The notes under the pieces are model-generated. The model made no database searches. It was not told where the DNA came from and saw only the letters and a program-made list of their open reading frames with translations. The position numbers were made by a program, and so were the translations under genes. 35,707 bases of DNA from a bacterium (GTDB lineage: Bacteria; Bacteroidota; Ignavibacteria; Kapaibacteriales; UBA2268): positions 1 to 35,707 of the forward strand of contig JAUIIX010000032.1 in assembly GCA_030431515.1 (NCBI GenBank), in the 5' to 3' direction. Position 1 is the stretch's first letter. Every line of letters begins with the position of its first letter. Positions 709-7,108 of the stretch are shown in pieces.

Positions 709-1785
709 TTAATTATTGATTATTTCGATTGCTCTTCCATTGTCTAAATTTAGTTGTCCAGTTGCAATTACTTTGTCCTCTAATTTTAACCCATCAAGTA
801 CAACAACTCTATCTTTAAGACTTCTTCCTACTTTTACTTTTATTAACTTTGCTTTACCATCTTTAGCAATGTATACCATAGGTTGTTTTAAGCTTCCAAT
901 TAAACTTTTTCGAGGTATTGTTAAAGCGGGTTCTTTATAACTATTTGATGTATTAGGGATATAAACCACTCCGTACATTCCTGCCTTCAATGGATATTCT
1001 TTGCTATTAGGAAGTTCAACAGATATTTTATACTTTCTTGCTTCATCAGCTTGTACACCTATTTGATTAACTATTCCTTCAAATTTGACAGAAGGATAAA
1101 CTTCAGTAATTATGTTAACTTTCTGATTTACTTTTAACTTAACAATGTCTTTTTCATCTACTTTTACAATTATTTTCATATTATTAATGTCTACAACGTT
1201 TAATATTGCTGTACCTAAATTTGCAAAACTTCCATCTTCTAAAAATACTTCTTTAACTACTCCGCTCATCGGAGAATTGATTGTAGAATATTTTAATTGT
1301 TGTTTTATCGATGTAACATTTGTTTCTTGTCTTTTTAGTCCTAGGCTTATTTCTTCGAATTGAGTTAAACTTATAGCACCAACACCAAGTAAATTTTCAT
1401 ATCTTTCCATATCTTTTTTAGCTTTCTCTAAATTAGCTATTGCTGTTGCCAATTGTGAGCTTATACTAGCATCATCAATAGTTGCTAACTTTTGACCTTT
1501 TGAAATACTTTGACCTTCATTTACTAATATACTACTTAATCTTCCTTGCATTTCAGCTATTAAATTTATTTCTTTTCTTGCTTCAAATGTACCGATTAAC
1601 TCTAAATCACTATCAATTAATTCAGACTTCACATCAGCTATTGAAACAGGTATTTTTGCAATAATAGTTTCAGTTTGTTTTGCTTTCTTATCTATTGCTT
1701 CTTTATTACTTGAAAGAGTTGTTATACCCCATACAATTATAATAACTAATATTGATACTGGTATTATAACTTTCATTTTTTTCAT
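709..1785 (-). CDS. RND efflux periplasmic adaptor (membrane fusion protein, HlyD/AcrA family)
   Basis: This 358-aa protein has an N-terminal membrane anchor (about residues 5-24), so it is tethered in the inner membrane with its body in the periplasm. The two halves of the lipoyl/barrel-sandwich domain are visible at about residues 71-105 (EMQGRLSSILVNEGQSISKG) and 168-200 (SPMSGVVKEVFLEDGS). They are separated by an alpha-helical hairpin at 106-167 that would contact the TolC channel. The remainder is the beta-barrel and membrane-proximal part. There are two closely spaced ATGs (1785 and, three codons on, MK); the first is used here. It starts 10 bases after the tolC stop, so the genes are almost certainly co-transcribed. 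Family and role are secure; the substrate is unknown. Confidence 0.93.
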   Translation of the reverse strand: MKKMKVIIPVSILVIIIVWGITTLSSNKEAIDKKAKQTETIIAKIPVSIADVKSELIDSDLELIGTFEARKEINLIAEMQGRLSSILVNEGQSISKGQKLATIDDASISSQLATAIANLEKAKKDMERYENLLGVGAISLTQFEEISLGLKRQETNVTSIKQQLKYSTINSPMSGVVKEVFLEDGSFANLGTAILNVVDINNMKIIVKVDEKDIVKLKVNQKVNIITEVYPSVKFEGIVNQIGVQADEARKYKISVELPNSKEYPLKAGMYGVVYIPNTSNSYKEPALTIPRKSLIGSLKQPMVYIAKDGKAKLIKVKVGRSLKDRVVVLDGLKLEDKVIATGQLNLDNGRAIEIINN

Positions 1786-1795
1786 TTTGTTTTTC

Positions 1796-3151
1796 CTAAT
1801 TATTGTTTGAATTGATTAATTGAACTAACTTTCCACTTACTTTTAGATGCTCTAACTCTGCTAACTTATAATTAAGCAGAGCTGTTATATACATTGATTG
1901 CGCTTCATTTAGACTTGTTTCTGCATTTAATAGATCAGTTAATGGAGCTACACCTTCATGGTATGAAATTTTAGTAATTTCATACAATTCTTGTGCTAAT
2001 TTCATATTATCTTGTTGTGTTAAAATAGAAATTTCATATTGTTCCATTTTAATTTTTGCGTTTTCGTATTCTAGATTTGCTGCATTTTTTAAATTCTTTT
2101 TGCTTAATTCTAATTGTTCTAAAATTAATTTATTTTCTTGAAGTTGAATTTTTGTTCTAAAACCATCAAAAATCGGAATTGATAAATTCAGACCCCAAAC
2201 ACCTGATTTAAAGTCACTATATTTATCATTAGTAAAGTTAAACTCGTTAGATTGACCTGTATAATTATATCTTGCAAATGCTGATAATGTAGGTAAAAAA
2301 TCAGACTTTATTACATTCCTATCTTTTTTGTTTAATTCTATTTGTTGTTTTAACAATCTATAATCTAAATTTTCTTCTAGTAAAATTGTATTTGATAATG
2401 GGAACTTATCAGAATCATTTAACTTTTCAGTTAATGATATTGGTTGATCATTTTCTAAATCTAAATAAAATCTAAACACATTAATTTGCTGAGCAGAAGC
2501 TATATTTATATTAGTAAGTTCCGAACCTACATTTGTTCTATTTACTTTTAATTGATCTACATCTAACTTTTTAAGAATTCCATTATCATATTGAGCTTGA
2601 GCAATTTTTACTAAATATTCAATTTTTTCATAGTTAGATAAAACAATTTCACGTTGCTCTATTGTTATTTGATGTTGAATATATAATTGAATTACATTAT
2701 ATACTAAATCTTCAATTTTAGATAATGTCTGTAAATTATAAATATCTTCTGATATTCCTAACTTACTTACTATTGCTATACTTTTGCCATTAAATAAAGT
2801 CTGATTAACTTCAATTCCAGCACTTGTACCATGCCTAACACCAAATTTTACAGGTATTTGTCCTTCTTGACCAAACATAGCACCTGGTAATAATTGCACA
2901 GGTAGAGAAAAGTTGTCGGTATATCCTAAAGTTCCACTTATTTTTGGATAAAAAGCACTATAAGCAGCATCAATTTGAGTCTTTAATATTTTTTCATTCA
3001 TTTTTACCCTTTTAAGATCAGGGTTGTTCTTTAGAGTAAGTTCGACAGCTTTTCGTAAATCAAGATAGAGAGTATCTCGATTATTATTTTGTCCTGATAA
3101 ATTTATTACGCATATTAGCATAACAATTAATATCTGCAGTGAATATCTCAT
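1796..3151 (-). CDS. TolC-family outer-membrane efflux channel
   Basis: This 451-aa protein has a cleavable signal peptide (MRYSLQILIVMLICVINLSG). Two outer-membrane efflux protein repeats follow, each built of long amphipathic helices plus short beta-strands (first at about residues 25-215, second at about 250-440). The start of the mature protein (LDLRKAVELTLKNNPDLK) and the segment GLNLSIPIFDGFRTKIQLQ are characteristic of TolC/OprM-type channels, which form a trimeric exit duct through the outer membrane. It is the first structural gene of the operon. The regulator gene lies 77 bases upstream, and the gap holds an inverted repeat identical in layout to one in front of the regulator. That suggests direct control of the pump operon by the regulator. 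Confidence 0.93.
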   Translation of the reverse strand: MRYSLQILIVMLICVINLSGQNNNRDTLYLDLRKAVELTLKNNPDLKRVKMNEKILKTQIDAAYSAFYPKISGTLGYTDNFSLPVQLLPGAMFGQEGQIPVKFGVRHGTSAGIEVNQTLFNGKSIAIVSKLGISEDIYNLQTLSKIEDLVYNVIQLYIQHQITIEQREIVLSNYEKIEYLVKIAQAQYDNGILKKLDVDQLKVNRTNVGSELTNINIASAQQINVFRFYLDLENDQPISLTEKLNDSDKFPLSNTILLEENLDYRLLKQQIELNKKDRNVIKSDFLPTLSAFARYNYTGQSNEFNFTNDKYSDFKSGVWGLNLSIPIFDGFRTKIQLQENKLILEQLELSKKNLKNAANLEYENAKIKMEQYEISILTQQDNMKLAQELYEITKISYHEGVAPLTDLLNAETSLNEAQSMYITALLNYKLAELEHLKVSGKLVQLINSNNN

Positions 3152-3187
3152 GATTATAAAATTCCTTATTGTTTTGTATTTAATATG

Positions 3188-3209
3188 TTGTTCGGAAAAA
3201 ACCGAACTA
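3188..3209. promoter_or_regulatory. Candidate operator for the efflux regulator, copy 1 (upstream of tolC)
   Basis: Half-sites TTGTTCGG (3188-3195) and CCGAACTA (3202-3209) are separated by six bases and match 7 of 8 positions as a dyad; the inner GTTCGG/CCGAAC is perfect. It lies 37-58 bases upstream of the tolC ATG. Layout, spacing and half-site are the same as the site at 3732-3753. No clear TTTG/TAnnTTTG core promoter was found beside this copy. Confidence 0.7.
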
Positions 3210-3228
3210 TAATTGCAAATAAAAAATG

Positions 3229-3678
3229 CTATTTTTTAAGCCATTTTTTAATAGCAATATCAATTTCTTTTGTCAAGTATTCTTGAAATTCAAGTACCTC
3301 ATTAATTCCATCATTAAATTCTTTAAACTTACTATTTTTTCTATAAACTAAAGCATTTTTTAAAAGTACATTAAATGCAGATAGATTTTTAGCCCCATCT
3401 ATTAACTTCTGCTCCCAATCTTTAGTATTAATCATAAAGTAACGTTTTCTATCTCCACTAAAAGTCCTATAGCTTACAGACCCATCTTTTTGAAGAACAC
3501 TAAGTGAATTACTGATTGAGCTTTTGCTAGCCTTTAAAAATTCTTTTATTTCATCAAAAGATGCATAAGGTGGTTCAGCTAATAATAAATAGCTAAAAAC
3601 TCTACTTTCCATAGGTGATCTACCTAATTTTTCTATTAGGACACCAAATTCTTCAACTGATTCTTTTATGTCTTTCAT
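3229..3678 (-). CDS. GbsR/MarR-type transcriptional regulator of the efflux operon
   Basis: This 149-aa protein has the layout of the GbsR branch of MarR-like winged-helix regulators. A conserved N-terminal helix contains EKLGRSPMESRVFSYLLLAE. The recognition helix region sits at about residues 42-65 (DEIKEFLKASKSSISNSLSVL), and the wing carries the GDRKRYF motif at about 75-81. A helical dimerisation tail completes the protein. It heads the minus-strand efflux cluster and is followed by tolC. The same inverted repeat occurs in front of this gene, overlapping its -33 element, and in front of tolC, so autorepression plus control of the pump is the simplest reading. The inducing ligand is not predictable. 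Family assignment is from visible motifs, not a search. Confidence 0.85.
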   Translation of the reverse strand: MKDIKESVEEFGVLIEKLGRSPMESRVFSYLLLAEPPYASFDEIKEFLKASKSSISNSLSVLQKDGSVSYRTFSGDRKRYFMINTKDWEQKLIDGAKNLSAFNVLLKNALVYRKNSKFKEFNDGINEVLEFQEYLTKEIDIAIKKWLKK

Positions 3679-5485: not shown

Positions 5486-5517
5486 TTTGGAATTGTTAGT
5501 TATCCTAACTAATTTTG
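5486..5517 (+). promoter_or_regulatory. Promoter of the CxxC protein / globin cassette
   Basis: TTTG (5486-5489), a 20-base spacer and TAATTTTG (5510-5517) match the Bacteroidota TTTG-N19/20-TAnnTTTG consensus exactly. Transcription would start at about 5521-5525, some 35 bases before the ATG at 5560. The -7 element overlaps the right arm of one dyad (5496-5512), and the start point falls inside a second (5519-5536), so this promoter looks heavily regulated. Confidence 0.75.
5496..5512. promoter_or_regulatory. Perfect dyad in the promoter spacer (candidate operator A)
   Basis: TTAGTTATCCTAACTAA has perfect 7-base arms around TCC. It lies between the -33 and -7 elements and overlaps the first bases of the -7 box. 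It is a plausible binding site for the MarR-type regulator encoded at 6500-7108 or another dimeric factor; which one is unknown. Confidence 0.6.
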
Positions 5518-5518
5518 C

Positions 5519-5536
5519 ATTGACAATTTTGTCAAT
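5519..5536. promoter_or_regulatory. Perfect dyad at the transcription start (candidate operator B)
   Basis: ATTGACAATTTTGTCAAT has perfect 8-base arms around TT. It begins one base after the -7 element and covers the likely transcription start. The TTGAC-N6-GTCAA core is reminiscent of CRP/FNR-superfamily sites, but the spacing is CRP-like rather than FNR-like. The binding protein cannot be named. As RNA it could also form a small 5'-leader hairpin. Confidence 0.6.
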
Positions 5537-5559: not shown

Positions 5560-5793
5560 ATGACTAAACCAGTATTTTACCACGCAGGTTGCACTGTTTG
5601 CGTTAGTGCAGAAAATGATATCATCAATTTAATTGGTGCAGATAATTTAGATATCGTTCATTTTGGTATTGATAACTCTAGATTAGATGAAGCTGAAAAA
5701 GCAGGTGTTAAATCTGTTCCAGCATTAGTAACTCCAAATGGAAATGTACTACATATTAACTTTGGTGCATCAATGGCGGATTTACGCAATTAA
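5560..5793 (+). CDS. Small thioredoxin-fold protein with CTVC active site
   Basis: This 77-aa cytoplasmic protein has no signal peptide. It begins MTKPVFYHAGCTVCVSAE, a beta-strand leading into a CxxC redox pair (C11, C14) at the start of a helix as in thioredoxins and glutaredoxins. Residues 52-54 (SVP) followed by ALVTPNG fit the cis-proline loop, with P54 facing the cysteines. It is shorter than thioredoxin (about 105 aa) and near glutaredoxin size. A dithiol-disulfide exchange role, or use as a thiol sensor, is inferred. An AGGGAA ribosome site (5548-5553) precedes the ATG. It is first in line from a promoter flanked by two dyads, with a hairpin terminator after it and the globin fusion gene 74 bases downstream. 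Partial read-through would make it the leading gene of the globin cassette. Confidence 0.8.
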   Translation: MTKPVFYHAGCTVCVSAENDIINLIGADNLDIVHFGIDNSRLDEAEKAGVKSVPALVTPNGNVLHINFGASMADLRN

Positions 5794-5797
5794 TTAT

Positions 5798-5838
5798 AAA
5801 TTGCCTTGTAAATAGAAAGATTTGCAAGGCAATTTTTT
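5798..5838 (+). terminator. Hairpin terminator, possibly an attenuator before the globin gene
   Basis: A 12-bp stem with one wobble pair (TTGCCTTGTAAA at 5801-5812 against TTTGCAAGGCAA at 5821-5832) has an 8-base loop and is followed by a T-run at 5833-5838. It sits just after the small thioredoxin gene and 30 bases before the globin fusion ATG, so it would favour the first gene and reduce read-through into the rest. Confidence 0.8.
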
Positions 5839-5867: not shown

Positions 5868-6500
5868 ATGAAATTAGCAGTTTGGGATACTTACGTTCAG
5901 AAAGAAGATGGTGTTATTATGCACTTTGATATTTTAGTACCAGAAAATATAACAGATACTAAAATAATTTATGAATATGGAGAGAAATATTTAAAATCAA
6001 AGGGCTTAGATTTGAAAATTACTTCATCTGATAGCAACTATTGTCATTTAGAAGAGATGAATTCAGAGCAGGAAAAAGAAATAATTGAAAATAATTATAT
6101 AATTTTGGAAATGGAAAACTGCAAAGATTTAAAAAGAATAGAGAATAGAGAAGATATCGAACTTTTAGTAAATACATTTTACGATGAAGTGAGGAAAAAT
6201 GATATATTAGGATTTATATTTGATGATGTTGCCAAAGTTAATTGGGATAGTCATTTACCAAAATTATATTCATTCTGGTCGAGTATATTATTAGGTGAAA
6301 ATAGCTTCAGAGGTAACCCTATGATTGTTCATATTGGACTTAGTAAAATGACTGATATGACAGAAGTGCAATTCAATGAATGGGTTAAATTATTTACTAA
6401 AACTGTAGATTCACTATTTGAAGGTTCTAAAGCAGAAGAAGCAAAAATCAGAGCCAGCAATATTGCACAAGTTATGTTATTAAGAATAGAATCATTCTAA
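5868..6500 (+). CDS. DUF2024 domain fused to a group III truncated hemoglobin
   Basis: The 210 residues contain two domains. Residues 1-85 match the complete DUF2024 family (start MKLAVWDTYVQKEDG, then IMHFDILVPE, YGEKYLKSKG, a YCHLEE motif with C59/H60, and YIILEMENC at the end). DUF2024 is a small cytoplasmic fold of unknown function. Residues 94-210 are a group III truncated globin. Tyr105 (FYDEVR) fits B10, Phe118 the CD1 region, His129 (NWDSH) distal E7, His155 (MIVHIGL) the haem-binding proximal F8, and Trp172 (NEWVKLF) the G8 Trp typical of this group; FWSSILLG follows the E helix. All haem-pocket residues are present, so a haem protein is expected. Group III globins have been linked to O2 or NO chemistry and peroxidase-like activity, but the role here is inferred. 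The stop overlaps the next ATG by one base (TAATG), coupling it to the regulator. Confidence 0.85.
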   Translation: MKLAVWDTYVQKEDGVIMHFDILVPENITDTKIIYEYGEKYLKSKGLDLKITSSDSNYCHLEEMNSEQEKEIIENNYIILEMENCKDLKRIENREDIELLVNTFYDEVRKNDILGFIFDDVAKVNWDSHLPKLYSFWSSILLGENSFRGNPMIVHIGLSKMTDMTEVQFNEWVKLFTKTVDSLFEGSKAEEAKIRASNIAQVMLLRIESF

Positions 6501-7108
6501 TGGTAGAATCACAATTTAACTTATTGCATCAAAATAGCAACATCGAAAGTAAAATTGTTGTTTCACTTGAGAGAATATCTCAGGCATTTAAAGTATTATT
6601 GTGGTCAGAAAGTAAAGAAAATTCATTAAGTCCAATCCAAACCCAAATATTAATATTTTTATTATTTCATTCCCCAGAAAAAGGGAAAGTAAGTTACTTA
6701 GCTAATGAGTTTAATCTGACAAAAGCAACAATAAGCGATACAATTAAAACATTAGAATCAAAAGAATTAATAAGAAAAGTATTTGAAGAAAAAGATGCGA
6801 GGTCATACACAATAGAACTAACAGAAAGTGGAAAAAAGACAGCCGAGTTAAGTGCATCATTTGCAAAAGTTATTCAAAACCCTATCGACGAATTACCTGA
6901 AATTGAAAAAGAAAAGTTATTAGAAAATCTATTAAAAATTATTTATGATTTAAACCAAAAGGGAATAATTACAATACAAAGAATGTGTTTTAATTGCCAA
7001 TATTATCAAATCAAAGAAGATAATCATTATTGTAATTTATTAAATAAAACAATAGTAAGTAAAGAACTCCGAGTAGATTGTCCAGAACATAATCTAATAG
7101 AAGAATAA
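6500..7108 (+). CDS. MarR-family regulator with a four-cysteine C-terminal tail
   Basis: This 202-aa protein has a MarR winged helix at about residues 45-120. The segments SPIQTQILIFLLFHSP and VSYLANEFNLTKATISDTI give the helix-turn-helix, and DARSYTIELTESGKK the wing. After the dimerisation helices a roughly 45-residue tail carries C163, C166, C178 and C194 (MCFNCQYY, HYCNLL, RVDCPEH), a CxxC-x11-C-x15-C pattern that could hold an iron-sulfur cluster or zinc. MarR proteins are usually about 150 aa, so the tail is an addition and a likely sensor. It is translationally coupled to the globin gene through TAATG. Control of the cassette promoter (dyads at 5496-5536) in response to NO, oxygen or redox state is my inference. 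The fold assignment is firm, the cofactor is not known. Confidence 0.85.
   Translation: MVESQFNLLHQNSNIESKIVVSLERISQAFKVLLWSESKENSLSPIQTQILIFLLFHSPEKGKVSYLANEFNLTKATISDTIKTLESKELIRKVFEEKDARSYTIELTESGKKTAELSASFAKVIQNPIDELPEIEKEKLLENLLKIIYDLNQKGIITIQRMCFNCQYYQIKEDNHYCNLLNKTIVSKELRVDCPEHNLIEE

Follow-up and report, generated by a model that had tools for sequence, protein, structure and literature searches.

The window, a stretch of 35,707 nucleotides of bacterial DNA, contains a gene in which a DUF2024 domain is joined in frame to a group III truncated globin. Judged from gene content and order in relatives, the fusion is one private joining of adjacent genes, and the conserved system is the operon around it, not the fused protein. 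That operon, consisting of a thioredoxin-like protein, DUF2024, a haem protein and a MarR regulator with a C-terminal four-cysteine motif, is of a type widely shared on the same comparative evidence.

The fused gene and its domains

The fusion comprises three nested features:

5868 to 6500, forward strand: DUF2024::group III truncated globin fusion gene, 210 aa (open reading frame, Pfam and PDB matches)
5868 to 6122, forward strand: DUF2024 domain, residues 1-85, with H19, S56, C59, H60 and C85 (Pfam 87.3 bits; 2hfq Z 13.4; alignment A1)
6144 to 6497, forward strand: group III truncated globin domain, residues 93-210, with Y105, H129, H155 and W172 (2ig3 E=1.9e-12; TM 0.86)

A sequence-only reading of this DNA had claimed a single uninterrupted frame carrying both domains, and the frame is indeed intact: it begins with ATG at 5868, ends with TAA at 6500 and has no internal stop, and the opposite strand is rich in stops. 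The protein matches Pfam PF09630 with 87.3 bits (cut-off 27, E=6e-25) over residues 1-82, covering positions 1-81 of the 81 in the profile, and its globin half scores 20.3 bits against Bac_globin (residues 94-195), slightly below the cut-off of 21. When phmmer was used to search the solved structures of the PDB, residues 1-86 matched the DUF2024 protein NE1680 of N. europaea (2hfq, E=6.5e-12) and residues 93-189 the group III truncated haemoglobin of C. jejuni (2ig3, E=1.9e-12). Some 7 residues link the two halves. The same reading had proposed structural modelling. Joint alignments of DUF2024 and globin (A2, A3) misaligned both families and were therefore split, one alignment and model set for the globin relatives and another for the DUF2024 relatives; AlphaFold and Foldseek then recovered both expected folds, one per set. 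The DUF2024 model superimposes on 2hfq with Z 13.4 over 84 residues at 1.8 A, and the globin model has a 2/2 globin fold with 2ig3 (2ig3_B) as its top Foldseek match (TM 0.86 by target length). The VIA-align match list consisted mostly of the globin half and was uninformative on further DUF2024 relatives.

The four globin residues named at the outset, Tyr105, His129, His155 and Trp172, were correctly identified and are unchanged in all 27 aligned group III globins; by the alignment to 2ig3 and the customary helix numbering, they correspond to TyrB10, HisE7, HisF8 and TrpG8. Gly-Gly motifs mark globin groups I and II, not group III, and the 210-residue sequence has no GG pair. The window globin thus shares its fold and the equivalents of these four residues with C. 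jejuni Ctb (2ig3), of group III (P), but differs in carrying an N-terminal DUF2024 domain and in having no start codon of its own. Intact pocket residues, and the known principle of globin-coupled sensors, would suit a ligand sensor in which O2 or NO bound by the globin half would switch its DUF2024 partner. We consider this very improbable, since DUF2024 has to our knowledge no output activity and is elsewhere an 85-residue stand-alone protein, and since the operon has its own regulator and the relatives use separate proteins.

The fusion gene holds the only DUF2024 copy in its 3.55-Mb genome. Conservation of H19, C56, C59, H60 and C85 across the family suggests a metal or redox site. C56, C59 and H60 belong to a CxxCH motif, typical of the family although outside the Pfam definition, which is incomplete in the fusion (S56-N-Y-C59-H60); residue 56 is Cys in nearly all DUF2024 relatives (alignment A1) and Ser here, and the site of the window copy may therefore be altered. 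An interpretation of CxxCH as a c-type haem site was dropped, because the sequence shows no signal peptide and the first Cys is Ser here. Relative to NE1680 (2hfq), the DUF2024 half is an entire domain above cut-off with the fold in common, but it is joined to a globin and has lost that first Cys to Ser. In another genome (G172, loci L027/L069), a DUF2024 frame of 133 aa (L027 1501-1902) is extended at its C terminus by about 45 aa, which occupy the position of the window globin and contain no recognisable globin.

Origin of the fusion

In the closest relative (G192, loci L017/L067), DUF2024 and globin are separate genes with an ATGA overlap; DUF2024 ends in MENCQ and its stop, and the globin start lies inside that stop codon. 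The sequence count from the Cys85 codon to a conserved GATAT is 30 nt in the window rather than 29, and it is this difference that places DUF2024 and globin in one frame. The window globin's own start codon has been lost. Whether the fusion recurs, or whether the genes stand separately side by side, had been posed as a check, and the outcome is one fusion and separate neighbours in relatives such as G192: of 24 Bacteroidota DUF2024 loci, that of the window is the sole fusion to a globin, and no second DUF2024-globin fusion was found in a pattern scan of genome contigs or among plasmids, phages and viral contigs. Plasmid matches extending past the globin, at about 30% identity or less, were not counted as fusions.

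A fusion known from one genome in 160 contigs, with an AT-rich junction that includes an A5 run, could be a sequencing or assembly artefact joining two genes. We simulated edits of the junction, covering single-base deletions and the insertion of one A at every third position, and none gave two genes with an ATG, GTG or TTG start for the globin. The fusion is therefore beyond a one-base error of the kinds tested, and as more than one error would separate the junction from a normal gene pair, an artefact is hardly credible. The junction could also yield two products, the fused protein plus a globin on its own initiated at Met82, an in-frame ATG at position 244 of the frame just ahead of the globin; but Met82 is a conserved DUF2024 residue (the EMENC motif) and needs no other reason to be there, which makes a second product improbable.

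The decay of the same globin in other genomes bears on how much the joining matters. Between DUF2024 and marR, G222 (L026/L068) keeps the ATGA overlap but has a broken globin gene, and G510 (L063/L066) has a globin remnant; both appear to reflect recent globin loss in one lineage. It is conceivable that the joining was near-neutral, produced by an indel at the ATGA overlap, and that the two domains work independently with no added mechanism. This would fit a fusion restricted to a single genome, a gene pair already ATGA-coupled in relatives, the loss of conserved Cys56, and a globin that is decaying in G222 and G510. Nevertheless, nearly all other invariant residues are kept in both domains and the recurrent association with haem proteins argues that proximity matters, and for these reasons we regard near-neutrality as a serious possibility but rather unlikely.

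The operon and its regulator

The fusion gene is the second gene of the operon, between:

5560 to 5793, forward strand: thioredoxin-like protein (grx/trx), 77 aa, GCTVC active site (2k8s E=2.4e-22)
6500 to 7108, forward strand: MarR-type regulator, 202 aa, C-terminal C-x2-C-x11-C-x15-C-P-E-H (HTH_27, MarR_2)

The order is thioredoxin-like, DUF2024::globin, marR, with the marR start overlapping the fusion-gene stop by one base at 6500. The sequence-only reading had passed over the thioredoxin-like gene, this overlap and Ser56 of the DUF2024 half. G192 has the same four genes unfused in identical order (75/54/65/58% identity). The thioredoxin-like protein, with its CxxC and a relative of thioredoxin fold in 2k8s, shares 64-80% identity with its relatives from DUF2024 loci. 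The regulator scores 35 bits against HTH_27 (cut-off 22.2) and 32.7 against MarR_2 (cut-off 27), and its family is common to the operons of relatives, where the C-terminal C-x2-C-x(n)-C-x(n)-C motif ends in CPE or CPD in Bacteroidota and in CREH in gammaproteobacterial versions. At 709-3678 on the reverse strand, the window also has an ordinary-looking efflux locus with, by eye, a periplasmic adaptor, a TolC-like outer-membrane protein and a small GbsR/MarR-like regulator.

Gene content varies around this arrangement. Other Bacteroidota have thioredoxin-like protein, optionally a secreted protein some 241 aa long, DUF2024 and MarR, and one locus (L002) has thioredoxin-like protein, globin and MarR without DUF2024. 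The secreted protein is often present in the operon (L025:774-1499, L130, L135, L139, L076, L077) and has no relatives in Pfam, NCBIfam or the PDB, making it a second orphan family of the system. Among Gammaproteobacteria (plasmids of Enterobacter, L078, and P. aeruginosa, L079) the order is marR-trx-DUF2024-Rof with marR divergent. These loci have the thioredoxin-like and DUF2024 families and the MarR C-terminal Cys motif in common with the window, but differ in the divergent marR, in a TATCGA-type palindrome and in having a Rho-binding antiterminator in place of the haem protein; the TATCGA palindromes sit between marR and trx. L134 also has a weak Rof match, located between protoglobin and MarR.

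A slot for interchangeable haem proteins

DUF2024 loci were gathered irrespective of globins, giving 24 from Bacteroidota (22 genomes and 2 plasmids). The genomes scanned numbered 395 at the level of phylum, 391 of class, 123 of order and 92 of one family, in overlapping sets; other phyla were covered through plasmids and one pattern scan. A globin adjoins DUF2024, or is one small gene off, in 9 of the 24 loci, and these globins belong to two families. Group III accounts for five (the window, G192, G343 and the remnants in G222 and G510) and protoglobin for four (G199, where it is present twice, G473, G629 and a Hymenobacter plasmid, the operon of which also encodes HTHP and has a catalase gene alongside). 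From the matches listed, group III globins are estimated at about 190 in 395 genomes, which, with gene numbers assumed, puts chance adjacency well under 1% per locus. Further loci, reached through MarR, carry protoglobin (G111, G066, G049, G158) or, with no DUF2024 present, cytochrome P460 (G280, G063).

Haem proteins are thus, on this comparative evidence, interchangeable within the operon. The MarR tree requires 11 changes of haem-protein label, a label that is weakly clustered on a tree in which several branches are long, and this implies that the haem-protein cargo has been gained, lost or swapped; MarR grouping departs from the kinship labels, which fits horizontal transfer. Since most DUF2024 loci have no haem protein adjacent, and L002 has its globin without DUF2024, neither partner strictly needs the other.

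Probable operator and promoter element, and hairpins

Four features lie in non-coding DNA of the operon:

5496 to 5512, no strand: palindrome TTAGTTA-TCC-TAACTAA, probable MarR operator (position and core conserved before grx in relatives)
5510 to 5517, forward strand: TAATTTTG, probably a -7 promoter element of Bacteroidota type that overlaps the operator (sequence; relatives show TATATTTG there)
5519 to 5536, no strand: second inverted repeat ATTGACAA-TT-TTGTCAAT (comparison of upstream DNA)
5798 to 5835, forward strand: hairpin and T run downstream of grx and ahead of the fusion gene, probably an intrinsic terminator or an attenuator (-20.3 kcal/mol, z = -5.8)

Around a dozen of the loci compared share the motif (A)TAGTTAGGAnTCCTnACTATATTTG in the DNA ahead of grx; in the window it reads TTAGTTATCCTAACTAATTTTG at 5496-5517. 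The -7 consensus of Bacteroidota promoters is TAnnTTTG, and we take the 3' part of 5496-5517 to be a match to it. With at most two mismatches, the strict pattern occurs exactly once, at the operon, in 10 of 11 operon-bearing genomes, and control matches number 0; in the window's own genome its copy is the sole exact match, with weaker matches at control level. The TTAGGAnTCCTnA palindrome also precedes most protoglobin and P460 operons with this regulator family; it lies ahead of the haem-protein operons of L126, L128, L133, L136, L137 and L074, and of that of L065 with one mismatch, and was not found ahead of that of L134. The palindrome at 5496-5512 is probably the operator of the MarR protein. 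The second inverted repeat is absent from the relatives compared. Hairpins like that at 5798-5835 are also present in L067, L002 and L064. A second, operator-like TTAGGA-TCCT palindrome is found right after the grx stop in L067, L002, L066, L068, L069, L025, L028 and L139; in L067 and L002 it lies within a terminator-like hairpin, a possible operator-attenuator coupling.

These results divide the original proposal that the fusion ties DUF2024 to haem chemistry. The tie extends beyond the fusion, through the globins of two families beside DUF2024 and the common operator ahead of most haem-protein operons; the physical joining is private, and the conserved unit is the operon.

A model for the operon

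In proposing a mechanism, we favour, with a probability of about 0.5, a fusion of co-regulated neighbours in a MarR-autoregulated stress operon, with DUF2024 acting as a thiol or metal helper of the haem protein. The operon would be laid out as operator, thioredoxin-like gene, (attenuator), DUF2024::globin and marR. MarR would repress from the TTAGGAnTCCTnA-type palindrome lying over the promoter, and would let go when reactive nitrogen or oxygen species modify its C-terminal Cys motif. The haem protein would then clear the stressor, for which NO, or a species related to it, is the likeliest candidate. With its conserved Cys and His, DUF2024 may join the thioredoxin-like protein in assisting the haem protein through thiol or metal chemistry, for instance by re-reducing or repairing it, and the fusion would tether this small helper to its own globin through the short linker. 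The stress is taken to be nitrosative or oxidative because of known P460, truncated-globin and HTHP chemistries: P460-superfamily proteins act on NH2OH and NO (PMC11928373), H. pullorum has a truncated globin that reacts with NO (PMC5577044) and HTHP has been employed as a peroxide electrocatalyst (PMC4813847). By this analogy NO is favoured as the stressor, but it is not secure. We think unlikely a more general and hitherto unrecognised role, in which DUF2024 and the thioredoxin-like protein would reduce or repair several stress haem proteins of unrelated families, namely group III globins, protoglobins and HTHP, under a MarR that senses redox state or NO through its C-terminal four-Cys motif; the window protein would then be the fused form.

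Relation to known systems and significance

The claim that the architecture is unreported appears to be right, at least in the open literature, where the sole paper found to name DUF2024 does so only in listing metal-binding proteins from Thaumarchaeota (PMC6393860). Searches of the open literature turned up neither the fusion nor a MarR-haem-protein operator (most subscription papers lay outside this scope). They gave nothing relevant on PA0939-PA0942, 2k8s, 2hfq, or MarR in combination with protoglobin or cytochrome P460; in a review of P460, the one MarR match displayed was the author name Marritt. Truncated globins fused to antibiotic monooxygenase, kinase and nitrate reductase are already known (PMC7082302), and like these and the flavohaemoglobins the window protein ties a globin to a possible partner domain; however, DUF2024 is an orphan family, and not a flavin reductase, monooxygenase or kinase.

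At this locus a globin is connected, physically and through regulation, with a conserved family that has a solved structure but no assigned function. For most single-domain globins no reductase is known. Cognate reductases have been argued to be more important than extra ligand-binding work for testing NO-scavenging roles (PMC2323109). The locus also exposes a cross-phylum operon of MarR, thioredoxin-like protein and DUF2024, the Bacteroidota form of which has a defined operator and an exchangeable haem-protein cargo. This operon is a more valuable discovery than the fused protein, and together with its operator and cargo it makes the function of DUF2024 directly testable, offering the family a first testable role.
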